Shown: positions 10,134 to 50,915 of the stretch, piece by piece
Layout of the letters: every line of letters starts with the position of its first letter
Position numbering within the stretch: the stretch's first letter is position 1
Assembly: GCA_943737045.1 (NCBI GenBank)
Contig: CALSFV010000259.1
Span: 310,001 to 374,000, forward strand
DNA from: Parapristionchus giblindavisi
Taxonomy: Eukaryota; Nematoda; Chromadorea; Rhabditida; Diplogasteridae
Length of the DNA stretch: 64,000 bases
Direction of reading: 5' to 3'
Program-made: the position numbers and the translations under genes
The notes under the pieces: generated by a model
Database searches by the model: none
What the model saw: the letters and a program-made list of their open reading frames with translations, nothing else
What the model was told of the DNA's origin: nothing

Positions 10134-11939
10134 ATGAAACTCTTCCTTGTCTTTGGACTGCTCGCACTTGTCGCCGCAGCATTCGCTCAGGACGACGAGG
10201 TACATATGTTTTAATATACTATAAATTATTTTAACTAACACAGTCGCAGGAGTCGTTTGACCTCGGAGATAGCCTCGATGGAGGAGAGGAAGAGGACAGT
10301 TCGATCGCTGATCTCCCTCAGGACGATGACAAAACCGCTCAAGACGATACTGTGAGTAGGCGATTATAGGAATTTTTGGGTACAGTTAATTCGTAATACC
10401 CCATCAGCCTCAGAAATAATTTACCATATTATTGTTCATTAATCTTTCCAAATTATTCTCCCATCAGGACGCTGAAGAAGAGGAGGACGAGACTCCAGTG
10501 GAGGACAATGAGGACGGTGAAGACGCGGACTTTGATGGAATCGCTGCTGAGGCAGAGACCGACAACAACAATGATGAGGTCAGAATAGTCTTTGACTGTT
10601 ATGAGCATGCATAGTTCATTCCGAAAAATATATAAATTTTCAGAATACTCAATTATATCTTGCCGTCTAGTTTCATTGTTGATATTTGTAGGAAGTTAGT
10701 GATGACGAGGAAGTCTCCCAGTCTGAAACCACGCCCACCGATGATGAAATCCCTGTCGCCGCTGCCCAACGTTCTTTCGTAGCGCCCACTCCCAAGAAGA
10801 ACGATGACTTCCCCAAGTTCAAGGTAGCTAGTTATTGCTGAAAATACTGAAAATTGAAAATTTTAAAAAGCTACATTTTATTCACCAATATTCTACATGC
10901 GCATGGCCACTTTCCTTGCCCAAATTAGTTGTGTATAAATCTGTTCATAATGTAGCAGATATCAAATATCTTTGTAGCCCTTCGCACCAGTGTATGGTCT
11001 CGGCAGATGGAACAGATGTCAGGGACGTCGTTTCGGTCCCATCAGGCCAAGATTCGTTCCTAGATTCAACTGCAAGGGAGCCTATCAGAAGGTTCGATCA
11101 ATATATTTGTGTGCACCACATAATATAGTTCACAAAGGTATAATATAAATGCATAAATTCAGGGATTCTCATTCGGATTCGCCAAAGGACAAGCTGTAGG
11201 ATATAGAAAGGGTTTCTTCGATGGACAAAAGAAAGGAGAGTTTATTGGTTACAAGAGAGGATTCCCTGCCGGACAGAAGAAGGGAGAATTCATCGGATTC
11301 GTCAAGGTATTATTATCTATTTCTTGAACTCAAGCAGCCATTAAGTTCTGTAATATCAGAAAAATACTTTCATATGCTATTTAAGGGAAGAAAGGTCGGA
11401 TATTCCGAGGGAGAGAAGGTCGGCAAAGCCAAGGGAATCATCATCGGAACTGTGAGTATATTCTATATTCAATTGCATTCCATGTACAGTAATAATCATC
11501 GATCATTGCCATAGGCCATTGGACTAAAGAAGGGCAGAAAGGAGGGTATCTTTATCGGCAGAAAGGAAGGCATCAAGTTCGGTGTTAGAAAGGTAATAAC
11601 CATGACAACCAAGATGACAGCTATTATTATCATATTATCGTTTCAGGGATGGAAATACGGAAAGGCCAAAGGAATCGAAATCGGATATGCAAAAGGTCTA
11701 GCTGCTGGACTCAGAAAGGTATGCACAACACTATGTTCACCCCAAAGATGTGTAATTATATTTAAATAAGAACAAAACGAGAAAAAAAATGAAAAAATGA
11801 ATATGAGAATGAAAAGTGAAAATGAGATGCTCACAAATTTCAGGGAGGATATCTCTGCAACAAAAAGATCGCTCTTCTCAAGAGAAACTGGCTTCGTTTC
11901 CACGGAAGAGGACACTTCGGCCATCATCAATTCTATTGA
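10134..11939 (+). CDS. Secreted acidic Gly-X3-repeat protein A
   Basis: Ten exons, all introns phase 0: 10134-10199, 10244-10351, 10468-10578, 10692-10823, 10978-11091, 11163-11306, 11386-11451, 11515-11592, 11647-11718, 11844-11939 (328 residues). An AG lies just before the ATG (TTGTAGGAATG), as at a trans-splice site. Order: signal peptide (MKLFLVFGLLALVAAAFAQ); a very acidic arm to about residue 139; a basic, aromatic linker with two Cys (ending NCKGAYQK); 30 consecutive Gly-X-X-X tetrads such as GYRKGFFDGQKKGEFI; a tail with one Cys five residues after the last tetrad, then a basic helix and a His cluster. AATAAA follows at 11960-11965. The Gly-X3 period resembles the deca-GX3 motif of Yae1/Lto1 proteins, but those are cytosolic and shorter. 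Function unknown; a secreted structural or matrix role is inference. The 48-codon exon contains an internal 16-residue duplication. Confidence 0.88.
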
Positions 11940-12057
11940 ATTATGACTGAATAACGATAAATAAATAGATAGATATGAATAAATGTTGAAACACATTCCA
12001 TAATGAGACATTGTACAGGCATGATACTTGAGGAGGCTCACAATGGAACTCTGTGGA

Positions 12058-12125
12058 CTTGGCATGGTCATATGAGAATGCAATATCATGACTAGAATAA
12101 GTTTTCTTTTGCTGATTTTGTTGAT
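12058..12125. mobile_element. Fragment related to the foldback at 23171-23604
   Basis: GTCATATGAGAATGCAATAT followed by CATGACTAGAATAAGTTTTC resembles the arm of the foldback element at 23.2 kb (CCATATGAGATGGCAATAAC then CATGACTAGGATCAGTTTTC). Only about 70 bp of one arm is recognisable. It lies about 120 bp past the stop codon of Gly-X3 gene A. Confidence 0.5.
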
Positions 12126-12669
12126 GTCAAGGTCGAAAGATTAAAACGTGTTATGTTTTTTAAATACCGCAAACGTGGAAAATCGATCAACAATTTTCTC
12201 ATTATTGTGTTATTATTGAATTTGAAAATTCTAAATAGAATTATGAGCCTTAAAAGATTTTTCATTCTCAGATTCAAACATTCCATTCTATAACGTGGAG
12301 CTATCGAAGTTCATTTTCCTTATGACATTTTCTCAATGTTTTGAATGTTTTAACGGTCCGCCTTCACGATTATTGAAATAACGCTTTACACAAACATTTA
12401 ACAGAAACATGGAACAGGGAGACCAAGGCGAATACAGATATGCAAAAAGAAAATTCACTTAGCTCTAATAAACAATCACTGTCCATTTTTTTTATTTCTA
12501 GGGAGAGGATATATTTTGATAAATTTGCTGCACAACGTGAAAATTTCGAAGTTGCTCAATTCTAGATCAAAGTTCGATGACAAAAATTTAGTATAAATTT
12601 TATCATGCACATAAATAACGTATTTGCTGCGACTAATATGTACATGTTTACATTCTTCTAAGATATCTA

Positions 12670-12880
12670 CACTCAGAGAAATGAAGTGTTAATATGCACA
12701 CCCATAGGTGATCCGAGAGAAACTGTAATCCCCAATGTGTTCTAATTAACAGCTTTTGGGATGTAAATTGGGAAAAAAGTGTAAATTGGAACTCATGGGG
12801 GTGTTCAATAGAACACTTTGATGCGTTCAATAGAACACATCAAAAGGCTGTATAGATTTTTACACATTTTTTTCTGAGTG
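12670..12880. mobile_element. 211-bp MITE with CACTCAGA ends
   Basis: The left end reads CACTCAGAGAAATG and the right end is TTTTTTTCTGAGTG, with TA on both sides. The arms continue as imperfect inverted repeats (TGTGTTCTA in the left half, TAGAACACATC in the right). No coding sequence. A similar CTCTGAGTG end occurs at about 18757. Confidence 0.65.
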
Positions 12881-13293
12881 TATTTGCATTAATTAAAAAA
12901 TGTAAGTTCTGACAACAGAGAAAATTGCTATGTTTGCTGTTAATTTGCAGAGAAATGTTGCACGTTGAGACTTGACCGATTTACCTCTTCCACGCTTTGT
13001 CTCTAACTTTCTGTGTCTCTTTTTCTCTATGAGGACAATTATATCTCAGAGAAAACATAATTCAATCCCAAAAAAAGTTAAACGCATGTATTATCTTGTT
13101 TATTTCATTAATAACTTGCAATAAGAATAGTAACAAACATGATAGGTGGAAATAGTTTATCAGAAAATGACCAATTTAATGACGACGGCCGTAGTTGTGG
13201 TCGTGACTGAAATTGGTACATTCATTTCACAATGCAAAAGGTCAATCATTTTAGCGGTTAAATTATTAAAATATTATTATAATTATTACATTT

Positions 13294-14925
13294 CTATTTT
13301 GAACAAACGCACTCGTGTGAATCGCTGTCGCTATCATGATGATGATGACGATGTCCTCTCTTTCTCTGGCATCTCTTCAGCTTTCTCTTCAGTTTGTCAG
13401 TCTTCTTGTCGCACTTGCGCAGGCCCTTTAATATTTTCATTTATTTTCGTTCGAAAGTCTAGAACGAATGCATAGCACATAAAACATCTTAAATTCTGAA
13501 ATCAACCTTCTCGAAACCGTCGGAATGACCCTTCTTGTATCCAACCTTCAATCCTTTAGCATGCCCTTGCTCGAAACCCTGAAATATTTTGATCAACATT
13601 TCATTTTCGTTTATTGGATAAAATCATACTCTAATTTATGCATTATAGTGTTTGCATAATTATGGTGGTGTTTATTTTTACTTTGCAACGTCTTTGTTAA
13701 TCATACCTTCTTGAGCCAGTATTCACGTCCGATTTTCTTGCCAATGGCGATTCCTTGCTTGCGACCAACGAATACTCCCTTGTTCTGAAGGAAAACATAT
13801 TGCCTACAATGAAACAACGTAAAAATAAACAACTTACAAATCCAACACGGATGCCATTATTCTTTCCATCACGGAAACCATGACCATATCCGATCCTCTT
13901 TCCCTGAAGCACTTTGTAGAATAAGTAACACAATTCTTGTTGCGAATAAGAAGTAACAATACAATCAAATTAGTTTATGAAGAATGATTGACCTTGAGAA
14001 GCCCAATGAACTCTCCCTTCTTCTTTCCGTCAGTGAATCCTGCACGGTATCCGACAGAATGTCCCTTGCGGTATCCAGCGGCGAACACCTAGGCGAATTT
14101 ATGTATGTTAAGCCCAGGCTAAAATCACAACCTCAAGGGATTACATTTTTTGATTAAATACTAATGACTGAACATCAAACTACTGTAATATGTTCGAGAG
14201 GACTTATTTACCTTTCTCCAGCACTCCTGTTTGTGCCATTGTCTGTGTCCATGCCCATTCCAGCTGCGACTGAACTGAAAATCATCGAAAAGATAATTAA
14301 TCTTTCCTAACAGATGAAAATAAAACCAAGACTCCTTTTGCAGAGAGTATACAATTAAAGAACTACTTCATTCTATTGTAAAAATGAACGAAAAAGAGTA
14401 ATACTTGTCCTTGAGATCCGTGATTTAAAGGCCCACGAGGTCCGACGAAGGTTCCTTTCTGTGCAGTTTCTCCATCATACTCGGACTGTTCGTTATATTC
14501 ATCCTGAATAAGGCTTTTGAACGTAAGTCGTATGAATTCACTCACATTTCCGTCATCACTTTCTTCTGCTTCTTCTGGCTCTCCGAAACCTACTACATCA
14601 TCGTTCTCCTAAACCAACTCAGATCAGCAAGACCAAATATGATGGAAATAATACAAGATGGATTGAAGCATGGAATTGTACTACATACTTACGTTGCATA
14701 TAATAGACATAGATTAAATCATTTTTATGTGCTATACCTCATTATCATCTTGCACCCCTTCATTGTAGTCTACAGAGTCATCCTGCAATCGAGCGAATAT
14801 GAAGATATCATTTCGAACCATTATCAAATCAATATCATATCGTTAAAAATCGTTAAACTAACTTCTGACTGAGCGAGCGAAACAGCCACGAGGCCGAAGA
14901 GCAGGAAAAGCGCCCACAACTTCAT
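13294..14925 (-). CDS. Secreted Gly-X3-repeat protein B
   Basis: Ten exons, all phase 0: 14863-14925, 14738-14782, 14546-14608, 14405-14503, 14212-14274, 13993-14088, 13838-13903, 13707-13784, 13507-13578, 13294-13425 (258 residues). Order: signal peptide (MKLWALFLLFGLVAVSLAQ); acidic arm with Tyr (DDSVDYNEG, EPEEAEESDDG); a GPRGPLNHGSQGQ segment; a Trp/His linker with one Cys (QECWRK); 26 Gly-X-X-X tetrads, e.g. GYRKGHSVGYRAGFTDGKKK; then GLRKCDKKTDKLKRKLKRC, a short basic coiled coil, a His cluster, a DSDSDS run and a C-terminal CVC. The rod exons are 32, 22, 26 and 24 codons; the last three match genes A and C exactly. The final acceptor is AAAG, weaker than TTTCAG. It is convergent with gene A, 1.35 kb away. 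Function unknown. Confidence 0.88.
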
Positions 14926-15268
14926 TTTCCTTTGGGACGTGATTAATGAAGCCACGCTCTTTCCTTATAAAGTGTTTCCATTGTTTTGACTGTTCTTCAA
15001 TGGTTAATTGAAATTTGTGAAGAAGGATGAATTATTCATATCTCTGTTCTTTGTACTTATCGTTTGAAGACGTGCAAAAATGGTCTTTAATTATTTGACT
15101 GATTTTAGCATAGCAAGGGGTGTGATTGGTACATATGAGATATGATAGGAACGACGAAAGTGCTAGACGGATTTTTTTATATGGTAAAGCCATTTTGATC
15201 TTTGATAGTCAGAATACGCTTTTCAAGAGTATCTAAAGTTAGTTGTTTATTCCTAAGGGAAACTTTCT
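14926..15268. promoter_or_regulatory. Upstream region of Gly-X3 gene B
   Basis: About 340 bp between the gene B start and the retrotransposon tail. A sequence reading TTTATAAGG on the minus strand (plus 14966-14974) is a possible TATA-like element about 45 bp upstream of the ATG. The same kind of sequence (TATATAAAG, plus 25829-25837) lies about 105 bp upstream of gene C. Assignment is by position only. Confidence 0.3.
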
Positions 15269-17090
15269 TTTTTTTTTTTTTTATGTGCAGCCAGTGGAAG
15301 CTGCCATTCATCTGACCATTTTACAATGGTATCGATTGCTGTTTGTAGATGTAACGGGGAATCACCAGCTTCGAAAGAGCGATAAATTTTTATATCATCT
15401 GCGTACATTCTAGCTACGACTCCGTTTTGTTGGGCTAGTGAAGGAATTTCCGAGGTATATATGAGGAAAAGAAGCGGACCCAAAACGGAGCCCTGTGGGA
15501 CACCGCTTGTAACACTAAGTGACTGTGATAGCTTTTCACGGACTCTAACCTGGAAGGATCGATTACTTAAATAGGCGGATATCCAATTAACTGTCTTATC
15601 TGACAATCCAACAGTACCAAGTTTCATTAGCATTTTCGAATGAGATACTCTATCAAAAGCTTTCGCAAAATCAAAATATATTACATCAACCGGTTTTCCT
15701 TCACTGGTAGAAGAAGTCCAATGCTCCAGTACTTCTAACATATGCATTTCGCGAGATCTTTTCTGTCTGAATCCGTATTGTACATCTGGGAATATTTCTA
15801 ACGATTCGCAATGAGTTATTATAGATTTACACAATAAACGCTCGAATATTCTACAGAAGAAAGAAGTTATAGAAATCGGTCTATAGTTCAGCGGATCCGA
15901 AAATGGTGGTGATTTCTAAAAAAACGATGGAGTGACGATAGGGGGAGGGGACTACCCCTGTTTCAAAAGAATGACGAACGATTATTTCTAGTGGTTCAGC
16001 TATTGGTACGGCTATTTTCTTAATGAACGAGAGATCTATATTCTCTGGAGTACGACAGGAAGATCGCTTCCTTTTTTTCAATTAGAGCGCAGATTTCATG
16101 TCGAAGAAACAGTGGCTCTTGATAATTGCCAAAAGTTGGGAGTTGTGAAAGTTGGGGTAGTGTACCATTATCAACAGTGAACACTCCTTCGAATGCTTTT
16201 GCAAGCAGGTTGGCCTTACCTAAGTCATCCATAATTAGAATACCATTTTTGTTTTTAAGTCCCTCAACTCCTTTCTCTTTATTAGAGCAGCGTTTCATAT
16301 ACCGAAAGAACTTATTGCTATCTTCGCTATCGATTATTCTCCGTTCTATGGTTTTCTGGTATCTATCCAATTCTTTCCTGAACTTCTCATTTAGTTGTTC
16401 AAAATTGTGACTATCAAGAGGGTCCTGGCTATTGATTGATTTCTGCCAAGCACAAAACATTCTGTGCAAGAGTCTTTCGATATGGGGAGGGAGTTTCCCA
16501 TGGGTAACATTTATTCTAGTCCATGGTACATGGATATCTATTGATTTTTGGATTAATCCTAGTAATATGTCATACATTTGATCCACTCCCACAATTGTAG
16601 AGAATAAACCTGTCCAGTCTACATTCGCTAATTGTATATTAATGAGATCGTAATCTGCTTTTCTGTAGTCTCTTTTCAATACGAATGAGGGGACGGAGTG
16701 TTCTATGGAGATCTTGAAATCAATTGTATAATGATCAGACTTACAAAACGGCGGGCCAATTTTGATTTGGTTTATCAGTCTAGGATTATTACAGAGAACT
16801 AGATCCAATATATTTCCGTGTACGTGGGTCGGATCTTTTGATTTTCGGATCCAACTGTGCAAGTTTCAATGTACGGCAAAATTCAAGGAATGATTGAGAG
16901 GGAGGTGTGACCTTTTGAGCCATAGGAAACTTAAGCCAATTAATATCAGGAAAGTTGAAATCACCTGTTATGATGGAAGGTTGGGGGCAAGAGCAGAGAT
17001 CAGTTATTGATTTTATAAGTGCATCCGTATGAACAGTTGTTGCTTTGGGGTTACGATAGGCGCATATAATGGAGGACGGGATAACGAGTA
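15269..17090 (-). mobile_element. Truncated non-LTR retrotransposon (CR1/Jockey-like)
   Basis: The minus strand encodes, in order, the end of an APE-type endonuclease (GDFNFPDINW near 16935-16966, then KSDHYTIDFKI near 16730), a linker, and a reverse transcriptase: FDFAKAFDRVSH, GVPQGSVLGPLLFLIY and the catalytic YADD at about 15391-15409. At least one frameshift separates the linker from the RT (around 16020-16080) and another lies near 15840-15900. The 5' part of the endonuclease is missing. On the minus strand the RT runs into an A-tract (plus T-tract 15269-15283) straight after QLPLAAH, so the thumb and 3' UTR are also missing. The copy is dead. Confidence 0.9.
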
Positions 17091-18900
17091 ATTACTGAAC
17101 GAGACATGCCCTGAGGGGTTGCGGGTCTGCAATTATGGTTACGCTACATTTTATATTTAAATAATTTTATACCGTTGATTAGGGTCAGCTGAATGGGTTA
17201 ATTATATTAATAAAAGAAATTCACCGCCCTTGTATTAATTTAGAAAATGTTAGGTTAGTGCATATATATCTTACAATTTCCAGATATGACTTCTTTATCT
17301 CACATATTTCAAATAGGCGAAATTTGTTTTATGTTACTTGCTCATCAGTGACTTTCTATGCTAATTACTCATCAATGAAAAATATGATTCAAAATATTGT
17401 TTTGGGTCCCTCGGCATATGATATGCTTATAGGATAAATATTATTATTATTAATCACCGTACCATAAATCGGCAAATCGCTCCTCTAGTTGCCATATCCA
17501 TTCCCTCCTCCGTGAGCTTCTCTTCGATCATAAGCAGGCAAAACGGTGCAAATCTGAATGATTGAATACGGTAACTATGAGCACATTTGGGATATGTCGA
17601 CTACCGTACCCAGGATGAGCGAGCAGACACGCTTCGCATTGAACTTAGAAGGACTCACGGGTGATCGATTCATCAACTTTCCTGAAATCAACACGATCAA
17701 TACTGCAAAAAACAAACGCAACGATAAATATTTATAACAATCGCGTTTAGATATTGCCTGGGACCATACGTCGAAAAGTATATAACAAAGTACCAAGCCT
17801 GACCGCATTTTGAGCCAAAATATTACAAAAATCGAAAAAACCTAACCGTATTTTGAGCTAAATTTGCTAAAAATCGAAAAACATGACCGCATTTTGAAAT
17901 CCGGTAACCTAGCTATTCGACATATTCCTGGGACATATCTTATGAATTAGACATAGTAACAAGAATTGTTAATTGCACCTTCTTGAACCCCATACTATTA
18001 TATTTTTTTTTAATTTGGAGACCAATAATCTTCTATGCCACAGTATGACAGACATCGGTTACTGTAGCCGACTTACCGGTTTGAACTGAACTGGATAATA
18101 GAAGGCGACCACCTCGAATATCTATTATACCGGGCAAAAATATTATTGATTTTTTGAATCAATAAATCAACAAATCAAACCTAAATTCCATTGAGTAGCG
18201 ACAACAGTGAAGAGACGAAAAGCAATCGTGAGACATCTCGGATCTCACTCGCCTCCAAAACTCCTAACAATGATAGAACGAATTCAGATCCAAGTGGAAG
18301 GGTAGCTGAAAGTATTGATTAATCCGAATTTATCGATTAATTTGAATCGACTATTTAGGTCGCAGACCGCATTTGCTATAGCCCATGTTGTATTCATGAC
18401 TTGCGGCAAAAAGTTTACCGACAAATGCGACGTCACAATTGTAGGAGAATTACTTCAGGCAAAAAGCCTCCGCCTACAGTTGTGACGTCCTTGACAAAGG
18501 GTTTGCCGACGTTTACAGCCTCAGATTGTGCTGAGATGAGCTAGATAAAACTTTGATGGAATTGCTACAGTATTATGAATCAATAATCGATTACTGATTC
18601 TAACCTGAGGTTAGCTTGCACAGCCATTAAAGGATCTCGTAGAGCGCTAGGCGTTGCGACACTGACCACGCCTGATAATTCGATAAAACTAATCGACCTT
18701 TCGAGAGAAAAACGATAATTTAAGCTACCTGTAGCTTAAGGGTTTTTTCTCTGAGTGTAACCCCCAGAGTCACCGAGTGCTTACTACGGACCCCCAGTCG
18801 GCTAACTACAATGGTCGGATGTTCCATACCACCTCCAAACCCTTAAAAACTAATGGTTTGGACAGGGATTTTCGCCTAAGCAAAGACACGCCTTTTTTGT
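17091..18900. other. Intergenic with small repeats
   Basis: Contains a short tandem repeat (17799-17900), a hairpin at 18431-18493 (GACGTCACAATTGTAGG against CCTACAGTTGTGACGTC) and a short perfect palindrome at about 18720-18739 (TTAAGCTAC CT GTAGCTTAA) followed by a MITE-like end TTTTTTCTCTGAGTG. Minus-strand open stretches at 17455-17820 could be tiny exons but have no consistent phase and overlap the tandem repeat. Confidence 0.5.
17799..17900. repeat. Tandem repeat of about 42 bp, 2.4 copies
   Basis: The unit starts CTGACCGCATTTTGAGC and ends AAAAATCGAAAAA; a diverged second copy follows (TAACCGTATTTTGAGCTAAA...) and a partial third (TGACCGCATTTTGAAAT). Confidence 0.7.
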
Positions 18901-18901
18901 A

Positions 18902-19303
18902 AATCTGGCTCCAAGATCAACAAGGAATACCTAGGGAAGATAGTAAAACTCTCCTGGAGCAGTTCCCACTTCGGAAACTGCTCGTGGACCTCCGAGCAGG
19001 ATGGGGCGCCAGTTTATAAGGCAAAGATCGTTAAGGCGTGGTTAAAGGAACAGTTTTCCGAATTCATTCGAGGAGATTATTGGCTGCCTCCTAGCCCGAT
19101 CTCAGCCGCTGGTCTACTCAGCCTGGGGCACCTTGGAGGATAGGTACTGTACTGCTCCCCACCCAAAGCTGGAGTCCCTGAAGAAATCCTTGGAGAAGGA
19201 GTGGTCGAAGATGAACACCACCTACCCGCGTACAGTGAGAGAGTCGTACCCCTCCCGTCTCAGCGACGTCATCAAGCCCAAAAGAGGCAGAATCGGGCAA
19301 TGA
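18902..19303 (+). pseudogene. Tc1/mariner transposase C-terminal remnant
   Basis: In one frame the DNA reads SGSKINKEYLGKIVK, then WTSEQDGAPVYKAKIVKAWL and SEFIRGDYWLPPSP, the typical block around the second catalytic Asp (QDGAP) of Tc1/mariner transposases. At about 19098 the frame shifts and resumes as SPLVYSAWGTLEDRYCTAPH and LESLKKSLEKEW, then PSRLSDVIKPKRGRIGQ and a stop at 19301-19303. The third catalytic acid, expected within PDLSP-D, is lost at the frameshift. The N-terminal half is absent. No terminal repeats were found. Confidence 0.85.
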
Positions 19304-19602
19304 TTGTTTTATTGTATTCCTAGATGATTGAAGATTATCTGGTAAATATTTGAACGGAACTCGATTTTTTTGAAAAAAAGATATTCCTTTTTATTGTGTC
19401 ACCATAATTAATCTCCACCCTGTAATCTGCAGTTTAGTAAAGCAAACATATTTATTTATGATGAACGTGTATTACAACTCTTAAGTCCTAGTTTCACCCC
19501 GTTGTCGTGTAGTGTAGTGTGTTGACAATGTACGGGAGTTACTATCTTCTTTATTAACAGAAAAAAATACAGAGTGGAGAGATAGATGAGTACTGAATCT
19601 TC

Positions 19603-20123
19603 TTATTCTCTGCGAATTCGACGAATGAGTTGGATATCCGTTGGTACCTGAAACCAATTAAATCATAATATTGATTAGTATATACTATATATACCGTCTT
19701 TCTGAGAAGAGCAGCCACTGCAGTCTTCTCGAAGATCCCAATCAGGAGGTTCTCAGCTGCCTCCTACAATGAGAATTCATAATGAGTTTCATATTATCTA
19801 ATACCTATGGATATATACTACGTCATATAATGAACTTAAAATACTCAAACGTAGGAGAAGGTATATTAATACTGGTCAATTGAATTAATCAATATAATAT
19901 CTATTACCTGTAGAGCGTCAGCAGCAGCGGCATGAATTCGAACTTTTCGTCGCATCTATATTAACAAATATTACATTTTAGACAAATCGACATGAATAAA
20001 TCCAATATAAATGAAATGTATACAAATAAAATATACCTTCATCAGTATTCCTCTGATTAATCGTTGGAAAGATAGACGAGGAATGAGTAGAGGAACGGTT
20101 CGTCGGAAGTATCGAATCCTCAT
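19603..20123 (-). CDS. Tail-less histone H3-like protein, 85 residues
   Basis: Four exons: 20037-20123, 19908-19955, 19686-19763, 19603-19647. The product aligns without gaps to histone H3 residues 49-133. It has LIPRLSFQRLIRGI for H3 LIRKLPFQRLVREI, DALQEAAENLLIGIFEKT for MALQEASEAYLVGLFEDT, and VYIVPTDIQLIRRIRRE for VTIMPKDIQLARRIRGE. The exon 3 donor is the second of two overlapping GTATAT sites; it alone gives full-length loop 2. The ATG falls at the alpha-N helix and a stop codon (TAA) lies 9 bases upstream in frame, so the modifiable N-terminal tail is missing. H113 of the H3-H3 interface is Leu and Cys110 is Ala, while Asp123, Arg128, Arg129 and Arg131 are kept. Loop 1 has no CENP-A-like insertion. 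A poly(A) signal lies at plus 19550-19555. It could be a divergent CENP-A/H3 variant, a regulatory H3-fold protein, or a decaying copy. Confidence 0.85.
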
Positions 20124-20502
20124 CTTATCTTAAATAAAGTATTGTAGAATAAAGTATCTCTAATAAAGTGTTGTAGAGAATACTGTATTAGAGATAGACG
20201 ACTTACAAAAGTAGATAACGGTAAGAAAACTATTATAAGAATGACGGAATGCCCAATATAGACAACACGTCAACTATGACTACGTGTTCTTAAATTAGCA
20301 TAGAGAAATGTGTAGGCTAATGTGCAGTATGATTATGCAAATAGACTTTGTAGCAGACATAGCAATTATATGCAAATAATAAGGGGAAAAACTATATGTA
20401 CATAGATAATATACTTCCTGAACGAAAATTCGTACCTGTGAAGATACAAGTTCAGTTCGTACAGTATATCTTCATATCGACAGTATCCGACCAGACGACC
20501 AA
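20124..20502. promoter_or_regulatory. Upstream region of the H3-like gene
   Basis: Contains a short imperfect direct duplication (AATAAAGTATTGTAGAATAAAGTATCTCTAATAAAG..., split at 20132-20190) and a good donor on the minus strand (GTAAGTCG, plus 20199-20206) with an acceptor-like TTTAAG just before the ATG. This could be a 5'-UTR intron. No basic histone-tail exon was found here in any frame. Confidence 0.35.
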
Positions 20503-20614
20503 GAGGGAGAGGGAGAGGGAGAGGGAGAGGGAGAGGGAGAGGGAGAGGGAGAGGGAGAGGGAGAGGGAGAGGGAGAGGGAGAGGGAGAGGGAGAGGGAGA
20601 GGGAGAGGGAGAGG
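20503..20614. repeat. (GGGAGA)n microsatellite, about 18 units
   Basis: 112 bp of nearly perfect GAGGGA/GGGAGA hexamers. Six-base periodicity leaves the frames open as Arg-Glu or Ser-Pro dipeptide runs; these are shadows of the repeat. It lies about 400 bp upstream of the H3-like gene. Confidence 0.95.
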
Positions 20615-20840
20615 CATACGCGCCTTTATAAATGTATTGTGTTATGACAATGAATAACGATGTTAACGATGAGCAAAGATCAAAGATCATGTTGACCTAT
20701 ATCTTTTATGGATCACTAATCTTTTCTTCATTTGGATAACTGCAGCATTGTTTCGTTCATCACATTCATTTTCAGTTCTGATGATTATTTGGGCCCGTCA
20801 AATCATCTTAGCGTTATATTAATGATATTTATAAATATTA

Positions 20841-22101
20841 GGTTGTATCATAAGTAACTGACTTTTTTGTGACATTTTTCGATTTCTTTGTTCTTAGAAG
20901 TGAATATAGCCAGCGATCTAAAATATCATGCTTGCACATCGGTGACGTCTTGCCAACATCTTATCAGCATACGGGTCCCAAGTATCCAGAACTGTCGGAA
21001 CTGGCAGGCAAAGAAACCGGTGAATGCCCTCTTGACATCAACTCTTTTTTCTCATTGGTTTTCTTTAAGAACTCTATGGATGGCGGAAACGAGTTGTTCA
21101 TAGTGAAAGGCATAGTCTGCGGTATAAGCAGGGTGGGGTAGGGCAGCCCAGTCATGCACGGCTAGTTTGGCATAAATCCATATATCTCTATGCAGTAAAT
21201 CAAGTTAATGTTGGAAGTGGTTTTTGGCTTTTTTTTCGCTACTCGATTAAGCACGAAACCTCTACTCCCGTAGTCAGAGAGTATAAGAGGTGGCGGCAAT
21301 AGCAGATATATCGGTAATAAGTTACAAGTGTTTCAACCATTTAGCTATCGAGCGCAATTTCACTCCTCAATTTTTGCGCTGAAAATCAAGTTTAGGAATG
21401 TTTCCTGTCCGTTCAGTCTTATCAATCAACAAAGACTCTTCACTGCTGTTATCATAGAGGACCCATCTATCATCTCTGGTAATCATTTGATTGGGTCATG
21501 CCCGGTTGCGACGGGAGGTAAAAAGAAAGATAGTCATACAAACCCTCAAATTCATGTCTATTGAGTAAAAACGGTATGGATCGTTCATTTTCAATTTTGT
21601 ACCCTTTTATCATCCGCTACTCCTTTCGCTATAGTTGAGAGGTGAGCACCGACCATGGTTGACAAAATCCCACTAGTGCGATGGGGATTCAATTCCGCTT
21701 CGTCGTGCTGCTTTTCAAAATCTAACACCAAGTAAGGTCCAGATTGGTATCATTGAACGACACTGTAGTCTCTACAATGGAAGCGATGGAACCGGGTCTT
21801 CACAGTTCCATGACAAGGAGTGTCTATGCCATGCATGCCTCGCAGCATGACTTCATATAACTTCTCCTTAAAGGAAAAGAGCAAAATAAAAATTAGCACG
21901 ATTTTTGCGTAAAATTAATTTGTACAAAATTTCCCGAAATTTTTCCATTTGAAAACAGTTGATGCTGACAACATCGTGCTTACACAGATGAGATAATGTG
22001 CTATCAGTAGCGCTTGGCCAGACAACCCTGTATGTTCATAGCTGAAAAAGAGAGCGCTTCAAAATCATGACACAAAAAAGTCAGTTACTTATGATACAAC
22101 C
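20841..22101 (-). mobile_element. Degenerate full-length mariner element
   Basis: 1,261 bp with 31-bp terminal inverted repeats (GGTTGTATCATAAGTAACTG ... and complement), flanked by TA at 20839-20840 and 22102-22103. The minus strand carries a decayed mariner transposase with several stops and frameshifts. Recognisable pieces are KLYEVMLRGMHGIDTPCHGT (near 21850), TVKTRFHRFHCRDYS in the helix-turn-helix region, ITRDDRWVLYDN around the first catalytic Asp (near 21470), and FRSL close to the C-terminus (about 20910). Both ends survive, so it might be mobilised in trans, but it makes no transposase. Confidence 0.9.
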
Positions 22102-22109
22102 TAATATAA

Positions 22110-23170
22110 ATATGGCTCGTTGATAATTATTATCACTCAGCACGATGATTTTTATGTTCTGTTCATAATGTTCTTCGTGTGGGTTCGATCACGTCATTTA
22201 CTCGTCTCATCAGGAAACATCGATTGATGCCCGAGCATACCATCTTGAGCTGATTTCGCCTGTATACACTGATAAAACAATCGAGAGTTTCTACTACATG
22301 GGCAGCAGGAGATTGAAGACATCGTCTCCGAATCAGATCAATGCAGATATTTACGAATTTATTCATTCAAAACTTCCAGTTATTTTTTTGCGATACTCCC
22401 AGTTAATTTTTTTCAGATTTATCATGCACAGGTGCACTGAATAAACCATGCTAAAACATAAGAGTATGGATCTGCAACTATGTGAAAATGTTTTAAAAAA
22501 TCGGAAGAAAAATATTCGGTCAATTTTTTTGCAAAAAAAAAACAAACAATTGTTTCACTTTTTTCGTTTTCACTATTGTTTAAAAGAATGAATTAAGCAC
22601 TATATCTATTTTTGGATATTCAAATGATTACATGACTTTTATTTATCAGCTCGGCTAATGGTACTTCGCATGTTTATTTTTGAAGTAAATGGAGATGAGT
22701 GAGTTTCGACACTGATTTTCATTGATTCCGTGCGTCATGAAGGGATGAAATATAGTTTAAGAGTGTAGTCTACAGCGTATCCAAAAAGTACTGTTACACG
22801 GATAAAACCAAGTATCTTTCTCAAAAAATCATCGTAGACAATTCAAACGGGGGAGAGTATTCATCACTGATCAAAGGTGCATATATGTCAATGAACGATC
22901 ATACGATATGGCTTCCATTGCCCCGCTATGACGGCTGAGGGACGGAGTCGATCACGATGTACATGCAGGGGATGCCGATTCTATCCAGTGCCTATTCAGA
23001 GGACTTTTCAGTATTCAACAGTCGAAGCCCTTGATGATCACCCCCTGTCTCCGCACAAGGGAAACGATAGAGGTCACGGATTCGATCCTGAAACGACCCA
23101 TATATAATACATAATAGTATAATATCTAATATACTTAATAGGTGGCTAGCAGGGGAGACGCTTCTTTCTT
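22110..23170. other. Intergenic, nothing recognised
   Basis: AT-rich DNA between the mariner and the next foldback. No exon, RNA gene or clear repeat was found. Confidence 0.45.
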
Positions 23171-23604
23171 ACAAGGGGATGGTCGCAACTGGTCCTGGCC
23201 ATATGAGATGGCAATAACATGACTAGGATCAGTTTTCGATGCTGACTACGAATCCGTTTTCAGAAAGTGCCTAATCGACCTGATTTTCGAGGAAATCGAT
23301 ATTTTAATTCGGATATTCGTGTGGTTTCCTGCGCAAACCGTCCGGGTGGGCTGGTAAACTCATCTATAATCTCTCGCAATAGTTTACCTTACATTGCCGG
23401 ATCTTTCCGATGCAATCCAGACACTTTGTGAAGGAAACTACACGACTTTTCGAATTAACAAGCCAAATTTCAATACCGATTTTCTCGAATATCAGGTCGA
23501 TTAGGCACTTTCTGAAAACGGATTCGTAATCAGCATCGAAAACTGATCCTAGTCATGTTATTGTCATCTCATATGGCCAGGACCAGTTGCGACCATCCCC
23601 TTGT
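23171..23604. mobile_element. Foldback element of about 430 bp
   Basis: ACAAGGGGATGGTCGCAACT at 23171 returns inverted as AGTTGCGACCATCCCCTTGT at 23585-23604. The arms stay similar for about 130 bp and then, with small gaps, for about 40 bp more, leaving a loop of about 90 bp. No coding sequence and no obvious target duplication. A fragment of the same family lies at 12058-12125. Confidence 0.8.
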
Positions 23605-24138
23605 TAGAGCAGTAAAGCTCCTCGTGCAAAATAAAATCCGGATCTGAGTAAATAAAATTGATAAGATCTCTGCCTGATATTGACATCATATTTAATCATT
23701 CTTCATTTCTCAATCTTCACGTTCTACAATAATAATAATAATTTATCACATTCGCACATTGTTGCTGTGGGATAAATCGTTCTATACAGTTTTCATATGT
23801 TAATCGTTAATTTACCTGATTTATATATTTATTTATTCTGTGTTTTTTTGTAAACGTATAAAATTATTATTAATATATTATTATAGTGCAGTTTTTTTCT
23901 GATATTAAGAAAGGACAAACATAAAATAATCATAAGAATTTCCAAGAAATTTTGTAATATAAATTTTCCATTCCTGAAGTACTCTTCACTTATCTATATT
24001 AACATGTAAGTACTTCGAAGTTCAATTTAAGTGAGACGTTATGATTTATCACAAAATTGTTCATATGTGATCTATCAACAATATACAGGAATTACTAGTA
24101 TTTCTTTATTCAAGAATACATGCTAAATAACATTGCAA
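23605..24138. other. Intergenic, 3' flank of Gly-X3 gene C
   Basis: AT-rich. Contains the gene C polyadenylation signal AATAAA on the minus strand (plus 24105-24110), 29 bases past the stop codon. Nothing else recognised. Confidence 0.6.
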
Positions 24139-25727
24139 TCACTGATGGCTGGCTCCAGGGAATCGGTCGTCAACAACTCGATGATTATGATGGTTTCCGA
24201 TTCCGTGGTGATGGTGATAGTTAGCCTTGAGATGGTACAACTCTTCCTCCAGACGCTTGATCTCTTCGGCGCACTCGGTGCTTCCCTGATATAGCAATAT
24301 TTACTTAGGTACTTTAACAGGGGAGTGGACAAAATACTACCTCTTCGAATCCTTCCTTATCTCCCTTCGAGTATCCCTCAAGGTAGCCGACTTCCTTTCC
24401 CTTCTCGACAGCCTCAACATTACAATTATTCAATATAAACACGGAGATTAATTGAATAACTGACCTTATCATAATTGTTGTTGTATCCGTCCTTCTTTCC
24501 CTCGGTGTATCCCTTGTAGAGTCCCTTGGTGGCTCCCTTTACCTGAAATACCAAACCGTTGACCGGTACCCAAACATATTGATGATAATGGACCGTACCA
24601 TGCCGGCGAAGTGACCGTGCCAGTATCCGTGGGAAGTGCCAGCCGTGATTCCGTCTTTCTTGCCCTATAACCACTCAACGTCGCACATTTATGATTAATT
24701 TTACAATATGTTCTGGTGGAAAAAATAGTGAAAAAAAAACAATTTTCACTCTGTAATCGTAATGAACTTTTCTTACAGCCTCGAATCCCTCATCGTATCC
24801 GAGTCTCTCGCCTTCAACAAGTCCGGCAGTCTTTCCCTTCTCGAATCCCTGTTCGTATCCAACATCGAATCCCTGAATATTGACTTTCAAGAGCAGACAT
24901 TTCGAAATATGCCTTAACCCTTCCACATGATTTCAAGCTCGTGTTCGGATAAATCTACTGATAATACCTTATTGTAGGCAGCAGAGCAGTTGCACTTCTG
25001 ATGATGATGGTGATGATGATGAGGATAATGGGGGAAGGTGGGAACAATGGGGATTGGTCGGTGGACATGATGGCAGGGACGACGAGGATGGAACTGAAAA
25101 GAAGCTGAACGTATCGCATTTATCAGAAATGAGAAAGAAATGTGTAAAAATGTAACTATCGGAATGATAAAATGAAGTTGTCTTACGGAGTGACCGTGGT
25201 ATCCGTGGTGTCCGTGGTGGACCACATGATGGACAACGGAATGGGTGCCTTGAGTGTGAATAACATGAGGAACAGGATGAGCGCAGGGGACCGATGGGTG
25301 GCCATGAAGACCGAATGCGGTAGATTCGTGACCGTGATCGATGACCTGGAAATATCGCGATAAACCGATTTTGTGGTTATCTAACTTACATCAACGCCAT
25401 GTTCATGGTCGTAGCCGCCGATGTCCTGGAATATTATGACTTTTTAAAACATTCATTGATTTTTTCCAATTTTCCAAGCCATTTTTCTTTTAAAATGTTA
25501 TATTTAATTCGTTTATTTTTGGAATAACCTACGTAAGCACATATTTGGAAATCGATTTTGTCGAGCCAAAGAGTGGAAAATTTTTAAAAATTCAAAATTA
25601 TTTCTGCTGTTGATTAGATTTCCGCATTATATCAAGGTTGTATTTGTTCAAGGTCCATAGCATGACTAACCTGAGTGTAGTGCGCGAAGGAGGTTGCAGC
25701 AAGGGCTAGAAGAACAGCGAACTTCAT
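24139..25727 (-). CDS. Secreted His-rich Gly-X3-repeat protein C
   Basis: Nine exons, all phase 0: 25671-25727, 25390-25425, 25187-25345, 24968-25093, 24777-24872, 24599-24664, 24465-24542, 24341-24412, 24139-24285 (278 residues). Order: signal peptide (MKFAVLLALAATSFA); a His-rich arm (HGHESTAFGLHGHPS, VVHHVVHHGHHGYHGHS, a run of seven His) instead of the acidic arm of A and B; a linker with CNCSAAYNK matching NCKGAYQK of A; 26 tetrads, e.g. GYEQGFEKGKTAGLVEGERL, with Gly replaced by Asn or Ala in two of them; then GSTECAEEIKRLEEELYHLK, a coiled coil preceded by Cys at the same place as in A and B; and a His-rich tail. Rod exons are 32, 22, 26 and 24 codons as in B. The His clusters suggest metal binding or pH-dependent assembly (inference). 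Confidence 0.88.
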
Positions 25728-46890: not shown

Positions 46891-49800
46891 TTACTGTGAG
46901 AGACCGTTCGAGACGGCTGCATGGGCCTCGAATGAGTACGTGAACTGCGGGACAAGAGTGGGATCCGGTCCATCTTGAGCACGATGCACGTCACTGACGC
47001 TGTGAACACCCGTACGCATCCAGCAAGTAGCGAAACCGTTCGTGTTTCCGAACTTGATATCCGTATCCAGTCTGCAATCAATGAATCATTTTATTTAACA
47101 CAAAAATCTCAGTTAACGAAATACCTTTGCGAAATACCTTTTAATTTGACATTAGGGGTGCAAGTAAATTTATTATTATTTCATTCACCATATGCATACA
47201 TTATCACTGGTTTGTCTAATTATAATCACACAGCTATTATCCTTCCTCGATATTCCATTAACTCATGTTACGGATAATGTGTGTGTCTTCATATATTAGT
47301 GGTAGTGGGACCAATCGTATCGTATCGCTTAACAGATGAGGGGACTACTCTCAAACAAACCATGGACGATGGCTACTATTTCATCTTCCCCTCTACACTC
47401 CCTTCTATACCTCTCTACTTGCCGTCTTCTTTCTTCTTCTCCCTCGCCACATCTTCACTCTCTAGTTGTCTCTAGTACTCTTTGATGCATTCACCAAACT
47501 TTTTGTTCAGCGATCGGAACAATAGAGACCTACGAGAAAAGGACGTAGTGATAATGCGTGACTGTTCTAGTAATATTCCAGAAATCGCTGATTTGAAATA
47601 CGATTACCATTGGCATTAGACGCCCTTGTTCTATCAAATGTAAATTATTTACATAAGAACTAGTCCAACGGGTGTATTCCCAAATTTAATTTGATGAGTG
47701 GATGTTATTTCCGCTATCAAGATCAACCTACTATCGTTCGAATAGATCTAGCAAAAACTGTACTAAACAATTTATTGAGTTAATTCTGAGTCATAAACAG
47801 AAACAAATAGAAATTTCGGACCATAGTGAACTGCCCCTGGTTTCGACCCCCACTTCTGTTCTAAACTATTTTGCATTTATAGGTTAAATTGTCATGCTTG
47901 TAATGTCTACAGTAATATCAAGTCATCGAATCGACTTCCGTGTCTACGTGCGGGTATGGGGATACAAATAATTTTTTTTAAAATTTTAATCCAATGATTT
48001 CTAACATAATATGATTTCAGACCATTCTATGAGTTGTTTAAAAGCAGGTAAGTTGCGCGGAAGCGGGGTACCCCTGCCAACTCATACCGAGCATTTCACG
48101 GGGCCAGAAAAAATTGGCCAAATTCGAACCATGGAGATGTTTGAACTCAGTACTTTTCGAGAAGACTAACCAATGAGCCAGAGGAGAGCTTGTGAAAATA
48201 CTGAAGATAACAATGATGTGCTTTATAATATACATACCTATCACCGAACATGATCGTCTTATCGCTGTCGATTTTGAAATTAGCCATGAGATATCGCGCG
48301 AGTGTCTCCTCTGGCTTGCCGAATACAGTTGGCTGACGAGGATGGACCGCGACGCGTACCGACGCCGCCATGACGCCGGTGCCTGCAATGGACATTTTTT
48401 TAAAATCTTTGAAATTTAATTTCAACAAGGCTACCTAGAACTGTGTTTAACTTTTATCTCCATACTCTTTGTACAATACTGGACCTGGCACTATATACTA
48501 TTCAAAAACATGATCACTGATATTTTGTTCTTATTGGTCTATTTTACCTGGGACAACGATATCGGCGCCAGGCACTGGGAACGTATAGTCTTCATTGGTG
48601 ATGAAGAATCCACAATTAGGATCTCGAAGGTAATTTGCGGCCTGCAATTAAAAAAAACAATTTAGTACATCTTTTCTCAAATTCGCAAAAATAAACCTTA
48701 TTCGAGGAAAATTAAAATATATTAGAACTATCTCTAAATATAAAGGTATTCAGAAACAAACCTTCATGATCTTCATATAGCTGATGTGAGGATCATATCC
48801 GACAACGACTGAGGATGCCTTCCGTTCGATGTCGACTTTGTCAAGGAACATCGCTCCATCGGGCACGGAATCGGGCTAAACATGACCATTTTTTGAATCA
48901 TTTAGTGTTTTGTTTATAGTATTTATAATAGGCATGATGATGCAGCTTTTCTTTTCTGAAAGATGCATTTCTGCGTATTTGGATTGAGCAGCGTAAGGTA
49001 CATTTTTTGTTCTGTTCCCCGCATGAATCAATTACTCTATCCATCTGTCAATCTGCATTCATGGAGATTCTGCAAAAAATCTGTCCATGTCTCTTCATTG
49101 TCCGCACTCTCTCGCTCGAATTACCCCGTTCTTTCTCGTACTCCCAAGTGAATCCTAAAGCTGATGGGTGCGGGCCGTCAATTCATGGCGGCATGGTGGT
49201 TCATCTCAATTGAAAGAGCAAGTACGAGGGGTACACCCGTGCTCTCGAAGCCTAGGGCCATTCGTCAGACTATGACAGAGAACTTCGATCTCTAAGATGA
49301 TCCCTGGAGATTCGAATAGAAAAGATCTGCCAGTTATTCTTTATCTCAATCTGGGTGCGTAAACCTTTGACGTCTTCAAAGCAGATGGAACTCCTGGAGA
49401 CTCGCGCTTTGATCAAATTCAAGAAGTGATTTATTTTTATATTTTTACATTCGTAGAAATTTTAAAATACATTATTCTGTGTCCACATTATTTACCCTTT
49501 ATTGTGTCACTACCACTCTAACTTAATATCTGAGCAGTTATCAGAATGATCAGCAATATGACTTACACCTGGTCCGAAGACCTTCACATTGAAGTTGTTC
49601 TCCAATGTAGTCCGCACGGCTTCACTTCCAATCAGGTAGATGTCTTTACTGAGGAAATGAGGATTTCTCTTGAAGAAATCGACCATGACCACATTTGGAG
49701 AGACGATGTTGCTCTGGTAATAAAAAAATATGACTTTTTTTAAAATTTGGGGCAAATCTACGTCTACACTCTCTTCATGAATTATTACTTCTTTGATCTT

Positions 49801-50273
49801 CTTGATTTGATCTTTGATCTTTGATGAATAAATCTTCGTTGTGGAATTTGTTAGATGAAATATTAGTAGGTAATAGACATGCAAGTACCTCGGTGATGGC
49901 TCCGAATCCAAGATTCTTCAGCTTCTTTAGATATTGTTCAGTGGTCTTCGTCGAGTTGTTCGTGACGATGAACACTTGCTTGCCCTGAACATCGTATGCT
50001 AATTGAGAATTACTCTTACTAATTTATGGAAATGACAGTGAAATACTTACCAGCTCAAGAAGTTTATCGATGAAATTGATGGCCCCGGGTACGACTTCAG
50101 TGGCTTTCCATAGTACTCCTGAACAATTCTTTCGACAAAGTCAGATAGTTGCACCAAAGGGCCACAAGATTTATCAAATATAATGAAATACCGTCAGCGT
50201 CGAATAGGTAGGTGTTGTACTGCCAGATGGCATCTTCTCCAATGGTTGGTACGGGCAGCAATGAACCGGTCAT
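46891..50273 (-). CDS. pgph: HAD phosphatase, phosphoglycolate-phosphatase family, copy 1
   Basis: Eight exons: 50192-50273, 50051-50118, 49889-49984, 49567-49713, 48762-48875, 48548-48641, 48238-48382, 46891-47071 (about 308 residues). HAD motifs are complete: motif I FDADGVLW with both Asp; motif II VTNNSTKT; the Lys of motif III in VFGKPEE; motif IV MFGDRLDTDI. The C2-type cap (SNIVSPNVVMVDFFKRNPHF, GYDPHISY, GFFITNEDYTFP) is that of the PGP/PDXP group, which includes mammalian PGP (phosphoglycolate or glycerol-3-phosphate phosphatase) and C. elegans pgph genes. Substrate cannot be told from sequence. Cytosolic, no signal peptide. A MITE sits just upstream of the start. The next gene upstream on the same strand is a duplicate with the same intron positions, 643 bp away, so cotranscription is possible. 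Confidence 0.9.
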
Positions 50274-50329
50274 TCTTCTGCAAATCAAAAGATAGTAAAA
50301 CGATAGCATGTATATATGCAAATACTTCA

Positions 50330-50482
50330 TTTGGGTCCCGTGTAGACCGCTCAGAGTATAGAGATAGCGCAAAAATGATCTCCTCTCATTCTATTTTCAT
50401 AGTCATTCCTTATGAACCCTCCTATTATGATAAAATTAGTCTCAAGTGAGTCTTACTGTGAGCGGTCTACACGAGGGACCCA
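50330..50482. mobile_element. Small MITE between the phosphatase copies
   Basis: TGGGTCCCGTGTAGACCGCT at 50330 returns inverted as GAGCGGTCTACACGAGGGACCCA ending at 50482. About 153 bp, no coding sequence. It lies 57 bp upstream of the copy 1 start codon, in what should be the promoter or intercistronic region. Confidence 0.7.
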
Positions 50483-50915
50483 ACTGTTTCGACATCGAAA
50501 AATTGGTTCAAAGAGACGATGTATGTATACCTGATAGGTGAGACTGTAGAAGAAGAGAGCCTACGGAGACTAGTCGTAAATGAGCGAAGTATCTGTTGAA
50601 AATCAGAGATCAACTTCAATGGAAAGCATTTAATGTTCAAGAAGGTATAGAAGGCCATAGACCTATTCCATTCGACAATATCACTCTTTTCTTGTATTAA
50701 TTATTCTTTATCAACTGAATAACAATCATGAACAAAGCAGAAACAGTTAAAGTTAAGTTCACAATGGAATACTGGTCACGGGTCATATTTGAATATCCTA
50801 TAAGGATGATTTAATACATTAACAAACAACTAGTATATTACAAATAGCTACATCAATACACTCTGCATTCATAGAAGCAGAGTGGACTAAAGAAGCTACA
50901 GGTGTGGTACGAGAA

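Follow-up and report, generated by a model that had tools for sequence, protein, structure and literature searches.

Six genes of the nematode Parapristionchus giblindavisi encode a conserved family of apparently secreted proteins with a glycine at nearly every fourth residue of a long rod

Proteins with a glycine at every fourth residue have been described in several settings. The YG box of SMN forms a soluble dimer in which three glycines lie face to face and each tyrosine packs on the i+3 glycine of the facing helix, the structures cited being PDB 4GLI and 4RG5 (PMC8287954). The repeats of FliH follow the pattern AxxxG(xxxG)mxxxA, with m of ~2-10, are predicted to be helical and contain at x1 >45% of Tyr+Phe and 15% of Leu (PMC2674601). 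Yae1 and Lto1 are adaptors of Fe-S assembly with a deca-GX3 motif of ~40 residues, and changes of the Lto1 motif glycines, chiefly in two of three sets, weaken its complexes with Yae1 and with the targeting complex (PMC4523923). Here, a stretch of 64,000 nucleotides (the window, C259:310001-374000, contig CALSFV010000259.1) of the nematode Parapristionchus giblindavisi was analyzed, in which three genes, named A, B and C, encode proteins built on a rod of GX3 tetrads. Together with three further genes (D, E and F) found in the 251-Mb, 703-contig assembly, they make up a real family of nematode proteins, conserved and apparently secreted, with rods of about three times the length of the deca-GX3 motif.

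The three loci of the window were read and their exons spliced by hand, and the protein starts were judged by eye. Gene A (10134..11939, forward strand) encodes 326 aa in 10 exons, with a signal-like start, an acidic arm (net charge -32), a Cys linker, a 120-aa rod of 30 tetrads and a Cys-led tail with His. Its linker exon (10978..11091) carries two Cys, at -25 and -7 counted from the start of the rod, together with the cap tetrad AYQK. The rod is encoded by exons 11163-11306, 11386-11451, 11515-11592 and 11647-11718 (span 11163..11718; 48+22+26+24 aa), the first of which is four tetrads longer than in B-F, and the tail exon (11844..11939) reads GGYLC, then places I/L/W/F at the heptad places behind the Cys and continues with HGRGHFGHHQFY. 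Gene B (13294..14925, reverse strand) encodes 258 aa in 10 exons, with an acidic arm, a 104-aa rod and a His/Cys tail. The cap tetrad of its linker exon (14212..14274) is CWRK, the Cys of which stands on the glycine stripe at -4; the rod exons are 14088-13993, 13903-13838, 13784-13707 and 13578-13507 (span 13507..14088; 32+22+26+24 aa), and the tail exon (13294..13425) contains GLRKC with its Cys on the stripe, a basic heptad segment, HRHHHH and a CVC end. Gene C (24139..25727, reverse strand) encodes 278 aa in 9 exons, and its arm is His-rich (30 His) and not acidic. Its linker exon (24968..25093) contains a His run, CNC and the cap tetrad AYNK, the 104-aa rod is read from exons 24872-24777, 24664-24599, 24542-24465 and 24412-24341 (span 24341..24872; 32+22+26+24 aa), and the tail exon (24139..24285) contains GSTEC on the stripe, an acidic heptad segment (I/L/L/L) and a His tail.

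In the three genes, the length of every exon is a multiple of three, all introns are of the GT-AG type in phase 0 and no internal stop was encountered, while some acceptors are weak (TTTAAG, TTAAAG or GTTGAG, for example). At the start of each protein stands a hydrophobic segment that resembles a signal peptide, in which [A/S]-x-A ends at residue 15-18, by eye. Hand splicing, which showed the genes to be intact, confirmed what a first-pass annotation had described, namely three genes at these ends, their succession of signal-like start, variable arm, Cys linker, rod and Cys-led His tail, and a glycine register that runs on over the splice junctions (GT|AI in A, GF|NK in B and GM|VK in C). Its count of 26-30 unbroken tetrads holds for A (30/30 glycine heads) but must be corrected for B and C, in which 24/26 heads are glycine: in B, tetrads 1 and 20 are headed by V and W, and in C, tetrads 20 and 21 by N and A. 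The longest uninterrupted runs are 30, 18 and 19 in A, B and C.

The other members were obtained by searching the animal's own genome with the rod sequences and with PF09811, only the best candidates being scored, followed by reading of the DNA of the matches. Gene D lies on the forward strand 9.5 kb beyond the window (C259:383545-385008; 25/26 glycine heads). Two others are located on contig C202, gene E on the reverse strand (254814-253017) and gene F on the forward strand (239341 to ~241026, with an uncertain C-terminus), each with an unbroken rod (26/26). Signal-peptide-like starts were recognized by eye in 6/6 members. The rod exons measure 32-22-26-24 aa in B-F and 48-22-26-24 aa in A, all in phase 0, and glycine heads 155/160 tetrads of the six rods. 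Tetrad 20 is a common weak point, being headed by W in B, N in C and A in D. Six genes are a lower bound, since 17 of many further match loci were inspected; contigs C595, C220, C86, C317, C162, C341, C472, C496, C204, C2, C423, C337 and C447, among others, hold matches that were left aside.

A minisatellite, or wrong splice choices, could read as GX3 by accident, and the same genome does contain minisatellites of this kind. They are built from units of 12 nt or related ones, can be translated as GX3, frequently in more than one frame, and are scored as matches to the rods. In the rods of A-F, comparison of the DNA at a lag of 12 nt gave a match of 0.90-1.00 at the two GG positions and of 0.27-0.37 at the other ten, the control lags of 9 and 15 giving 0.16-0.28 over all positions. 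As the identity is confined to the GG positions, the rods are neither a product of chance nor a DNA repeat. The GX3 period of the window genes is furthermore present in a single frame, save for one short second-frame run that overlaps the third rod exon of C (24499-24537). The paralogs were then compared codon by codon, A being shortened by four tetrads. More than one glycine codon is used in 24/26 glycine columns, and the identity at the x positions is 12-35% in 14/15 pairs and 56% between E and F. Synonymous differences are large (pS 0.50-0.78 in the 15 pairs) and pN is lower than pS in 15/15, most narrowly for C-D (0.49 vs 0.54); for E-F, dN is 0.22 and dS 0.82. With exon lengths, phase and flanking parts also kept in the six genes, an artefactual origin is very improbable. 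What selection holds is the glycine register, at the level of the protein and not of the DNA.

The minisatellites are a trap for searches with GX3 sequences or with Yae1_N. Those of the GGGGCTTAAATC type translate as GLKS/GLNR repeats, in many cases in more than one frame, with examples at C342:256957-265730, C400:137003-138920, C207:1052779-1055467 and C210:1357649-1358572. Among the 17 further match loci inspected, 16 proved to be repetitive at the DNA level, with units of 12 nt or related ones, and not family members (two each on C342 and C400, one at 1053 kb of C207, and one each on C210, C360, C297, C251, C266, C265, C9, C121, C307, C238 and C159). The last, L056 at 1340 kb of C207, reads GYGNGHRL and lacks the exon layout of the family by eye. 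No family exon set was found on C207:1024-1034 kb, C274, C13, C321, C223, C660 or C259:300-310 kb; on C660, the match of one exon profile at E 1.5e-4 (L048) was due to a GFTR repeat.

The six rods share several features besides the glycine heads. The tetrad preceding the rod is AYx[K/R] in 5/6 members and CWRK in B, that is [A/C][Y/W]x[K/R] in 6/6, so that Ala or Cys opens the stripe. The rod is succeeded by one further tetrad (headed by G in five members and by A in E) and then by a Cys, which in 6/6 occupies rod end +5, exactly the next place of the glycine register. This Cys and the [A/C]-headed cap tetrad are new details. In A/B/C/D, in this order, the residues are I/T/I/V at Cys+4, L/L/L/L at +7, W/L/L/I at +11 and F/C/L/F at +14; this short heptad is hydrophobic or Cys at 15/16 places, with Thr at the remaining one. 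Aromatic residues are concentrated at x1 (60/160, against 12/160 at x2 and 7/160 at x3; Fisher p 1.6e-17 over the six rods), where Tyr+Phe amount to 58/160 (36%) and Leu to 23/160 (14%), and x3 is rich in Lys. The rods carry a net charge of +10 to +22, except in C (-4), and the arms of A, B, D, E and F one of -18 to -45.

Each described system resembles the family in part. Like the rods, the SMN YG box intersperses a glycine at each fourth residue with aromatics, there within an alpha-helix that is soluble; it differs in having three well-conserved glycines against 24-30 and in belonging to an intracellular RNA-processing protein. SMN proteins carry a Tudor domain and a Gemin2-binding region, and their YG box is not known to come with a signal peptide, a Cys cap or His arms. 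The Pfam model SMN_YG-box (PF20635) matched 1/6 members weakly (E 0.07). FliH/YscL proteins share with the rods the Ala cap and an x1 rich in Tyr/Phe with Leu, but they are bacterial and the x3 of FliH is rich in Glu/Gln/Ala, that of the rods in Lys. At E<=0.1, the FliH C-terminal domain (PF02108) matched none of the six members, four FliH models of NCBIfam matched 6/6, a fifth matched two, and two unrelated models matched one each. For B, the FliH scores arise through the repeat and are far below the cut-offs (45 bits vs 260 and 42.8 vs 180).

Yae1/Lto1 likewise possess GX3 tetrads, the glycines of which matter for the Yae1-Lto1 complex. They belong to a cytosolic pathway and their motif has ~40 residues, whereas the rods have 104-120 and the family starts are signal-like by eye; the C-terminal Trp of Lto1 (Phe in some) is lacking in A, B and C, which end in Y, K and Q. 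The Yae1_N model (PF09811) was matched by 6/6 members at E<=0.1, with 32.1 bits for C, 22.5 for B and 19.1 for A, so that among A-C only C exceeds the curated cut-off of 27.5. The same model is also carried by many other GX3 matches, including FliH-named ones. No Pfam family beyond Yae1_N and SMN_YG-box matched the six members at E<=0.1, the Tudor domain and the Gemin2-binding region of SMN thus being absent from the matches; among PHROGs, phrog_4785 (function unknown) matched 6/6 and six others matched one or two members. The first-pass annotation had set the rods against Yae1/Lto1 only. The deca-GX3 motif is indeed shorter (40 residues), but this contrast is too narrow in view of FliH, the SMN YG box and GX3 proteins of fungal and prokaryote-looking origin.

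The latter were encountered in protein database searches, which gave 12 matches at E<=1 (3 at E<=0.001) in a first search and 96 at E<=10 (62 at E<=0.001) in a second. Named matches were fungal, of FliH type or otherwise bacterial, and most were nameless. No match with a nematode name was present among the ~8000 candidates scored, which is weak evidence because these were crowded by other GX3 proteins. Fungal GX3 proteins were found in Smittium mucronatum (P0001) and Cucurbitaria (P0031), and glycine-head runs as long as or longer than those of A-F in P0001 (45), P0020 (31) and P0019 (30). In P0001, P0031, P0002, P0013, P0014, P0016, P0020 and P0024, runs of 18-45 glycine heads occur, several behind signal- or lipobox-like starts by eye. 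The flanks of the GX3-run proteins are other than those of the family, and the similarity is confined to the repeat and may be convergent. Six nameless, prokaryote-looking proteins (P0002, P0013, P0014, P0016, P0024 and P0040) have 19-26 consecutive glycine heads after signal- or lipobox-like starts and are a little-described class of their own.

None of 18 match sequences inspected had the family architecture, in which a Cys on the register ends the rod and is followed by a His tail. In the PDB (2026 copy, E up to 10), query A1 had two matches by sequence (0.071 and 0.34), query A6 none, gene C one (1.1) and gene A seven, the best being an ARID-domain protein at 3e-4; this comparison gave no clear relative, and the alignments inspected (1/1 for C and 3/7 for A) were low-complexity glycine repeats. 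Nor was a paper combining nematode, secreted and GX3-like proteins found in the open-licence literature. Neither the packing principle nor the run length is unique, and it is the whole combination that appears unmatched in the databases searched: a signal, an arm that is acidic or rich in His, an [A/C] cap, the rod, an on-stripe Cys and a heptad or His tail.

With little better than even confidence, we read the rods of A-F as parallel, in-register, two-stranded right-handed glycine zippers, capped by a disulfide, of secreted proteins that are likely extracellular cross-linkers or scaffolds. The central 26-30 tetrads would form a long alpha-helix bearing a glycine stripe, and a pair of these, in all likelihood running parallel and in register, would wind into a right-handed zipper of ~140-165 A. 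With the stripes opposed, the aromatic or Leu that follows a glycine would pack on the next glycine of the partner, as in the SMN YG box. Because the +5 Cys stands on the stripe, at or near the interface, it is naturally placed to bond with its counterpart in the other chain when the two are parallel and in register, and it would close such a disulfide there. A short left-handed heptad coil would follow in A-D, with the acidic arms (His-rich in C) leaving one end and the His-bearing tails the other. The rod would thus be a thin, stable spacer carrying arms responsive to charge, pH or metal, and we infer the cross-linking or scaffolding role from the charge blocks, the His arms and the Cys ends.

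Glycine zippers require a small residue at each fourth place over several turns, and in the rods this residue is glycine at the 155/160 places. An ideal glycine stripe with a period of four residues generates a right-handed rope with a pitch of ~50 A and a crossing of -45 degrees at 6.6 A. When an idealised backbone was scanned, the glycine rope was free of clashes at 6.6 A, an all-Ala rope at 8.4 A and a crude left-handed control at 9.8 A. These values resemble those of the GxxxG/GASright class. AlphaFold2 prediction of the fungal P0001 from its single sequence gave helices at 68-114 and 119-191 (break at 115-118), with block-mean pLDDT of 69-85 over 81-150. Packing of helices face to face through the glycine stripe, one of two possibilities raised at first sight, is the best-supported mechanism, though an inferred one, and the extended fibre, the other, has no specific support.

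Several observations weigh against the zipper. The helix itself is weakly supported: when the 48-aa rod exon of A was modelled together with five relatives (AlphaFold2 on six sequences, as a single chain), helix was predicted with low confidence at 2-31 (block-mean pLDDT 51-59) and residues 32-48 were non-helical. The overall quality of the P0001 model is poor (mean pLDDT 51.4, pTM 0.29), its GX3 run beyond residue 191 is mostly non-helical with pLDDT <50, and a fold search with this low-confidence model returned nothing at E<=0.001 (best E 0.035). A crude model with the glycines exactly face on clashed, and in the clash-free rope they point ~40 degrees off, both models being idealised. The zipper may also kink at tetrad 20, as this tetrad lacks its glycine head in B, C and D. 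Finally, the heptad places of A-D are occupied by L/A/R/H in E and by F/H/H/F in F, and the Cys on the N-terminal side changes position, at -7 in A, C, D and F, at -4 in B and no closer than -18 in E.

Some of these features could also point to a helical zipper in which the chains pair antiparallel or each chain folds back on itself, the N-side and C-side Cys meeting across the ends. In gene B the rod is flanked on either side by a stripe Cys (-4 and +5), and these two might bond in this manner; a turn might underlie the break at tetrad 20 that B, C and D share, and the helix of the P0001 model is likewise interrupted. However, a hairpin turning at tetrad 20 of 26, well away from the centre, would be uneven, in 5/6 members the neighbouring stripe position on the N side (-4) is not a Cys, and the Cys-led heptads of A-D resemble a parallel coil. 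We regard such an arrangement as unlikely.

The low AlphaFold2 confidence on the rod exon is also compatible with a flexible, disordered and basic chain spaced by glycine, a poor helix former, that would condense with the acidic arms into a gel or granule matrix; the opposite block charges of arm and rod in A, B, D, E and F suit this idea. Disorder has no need, though, of an exact four-residue period kept over near-saturated synonymous divergence, nor of the aromatic rule at x1 and a Cys fixed on the register in 6/6, and we consider it the less probable still. If instead the His- and Cys-rich ends were the functional part, the family would mainly bind metal or heme, with the rod only as a spacer. 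In agreement with this, His residues number 30+9 in arm and tail of C, 12+7 in D and 10+7 in E, F has 21 in the arm and a His-rich tail, and the ends of the family contain CxC, CVC and CGCGCGH pieces. Gene A, however, lacks His in both arm and rod, its tail containing four, B has four in the arm, and the best conserved part is the rod and not the ends; metal or heme binding as the main role is about as doubtful as the antiparallel arrangement.

Upstream of all six ATGs, a TATA-like box was noted at 47-125 bp (that of B through an added pattern; without control). In 5/6 genes, an acceptor-like AG stands 0-9 nt before the ATG (without control), which suggests trans-splicing. The intestinal GATA site TGATAA was not enriched upstream (4 found vs a shuffled mean of 5.1), so that no tissue was inferred. 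The SL1 leader of C. elegans, a 22-mer, is present in the genome in 351 exact copies (80 forward and 271 reverse, backward control 0), which marks the animal as a nematode. Its COX1 shares 94% identity with that of Litoditis and 92% with that of Caenorhabditis briggsae, among the named matches within the 120 listed out of 7998, in keeping with a rhabditid. A tandem array with one SL1 copy per ~1.17 kb extends at least over C145:26449-82876 and is probably the 5S-SL1 repeat.

Elsewhere in the window, a broken non-LTR retrotransposon lies between B and C (15253-17091, reverse strand), with RVT_1 (E 6e-30) and Exo_endo_phos_2 in separate open reading frames (ORFs), and a GA-type microsatellite at 20505-20615 reads as alternating glycine in two frames. 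On the reverse strand, a gene resembling HAD-type phosphatases is apparently present twice within 48147-51431: the ORF at 50.9-51.4 kb matched Hydrolase_like, and a similar segment was seen by eye at 48.1-48.4 kb. The reverse-strand ORF at 57635-57895 resembles what we take to be a DHR2 segment of the DOCK/CED-5 family.

A glycine-zipper rod would be a rarely described way of building a protein outside animal cells, and the present animal family together with the fungal GX3 proteins calls for the widening of a statement made in 2015. Six rods of 104-120 residues with an on-stripe Cys offer a simple test of packing, in which disulfide mapping would give both orientation and register. A bolder and rather improbable extension is a lineage-specific extracellular cross-linker, in which giant zipper ropes would be locked by the on-stripe disulfide, the acidic C would pair with the basic A, B or D through rod and coil, and the His or acidic arms would give a response to pH or metal. 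If true, this would be a class of secreted spacers resting on right-handed GX3 packing and not on heptads or collagen.

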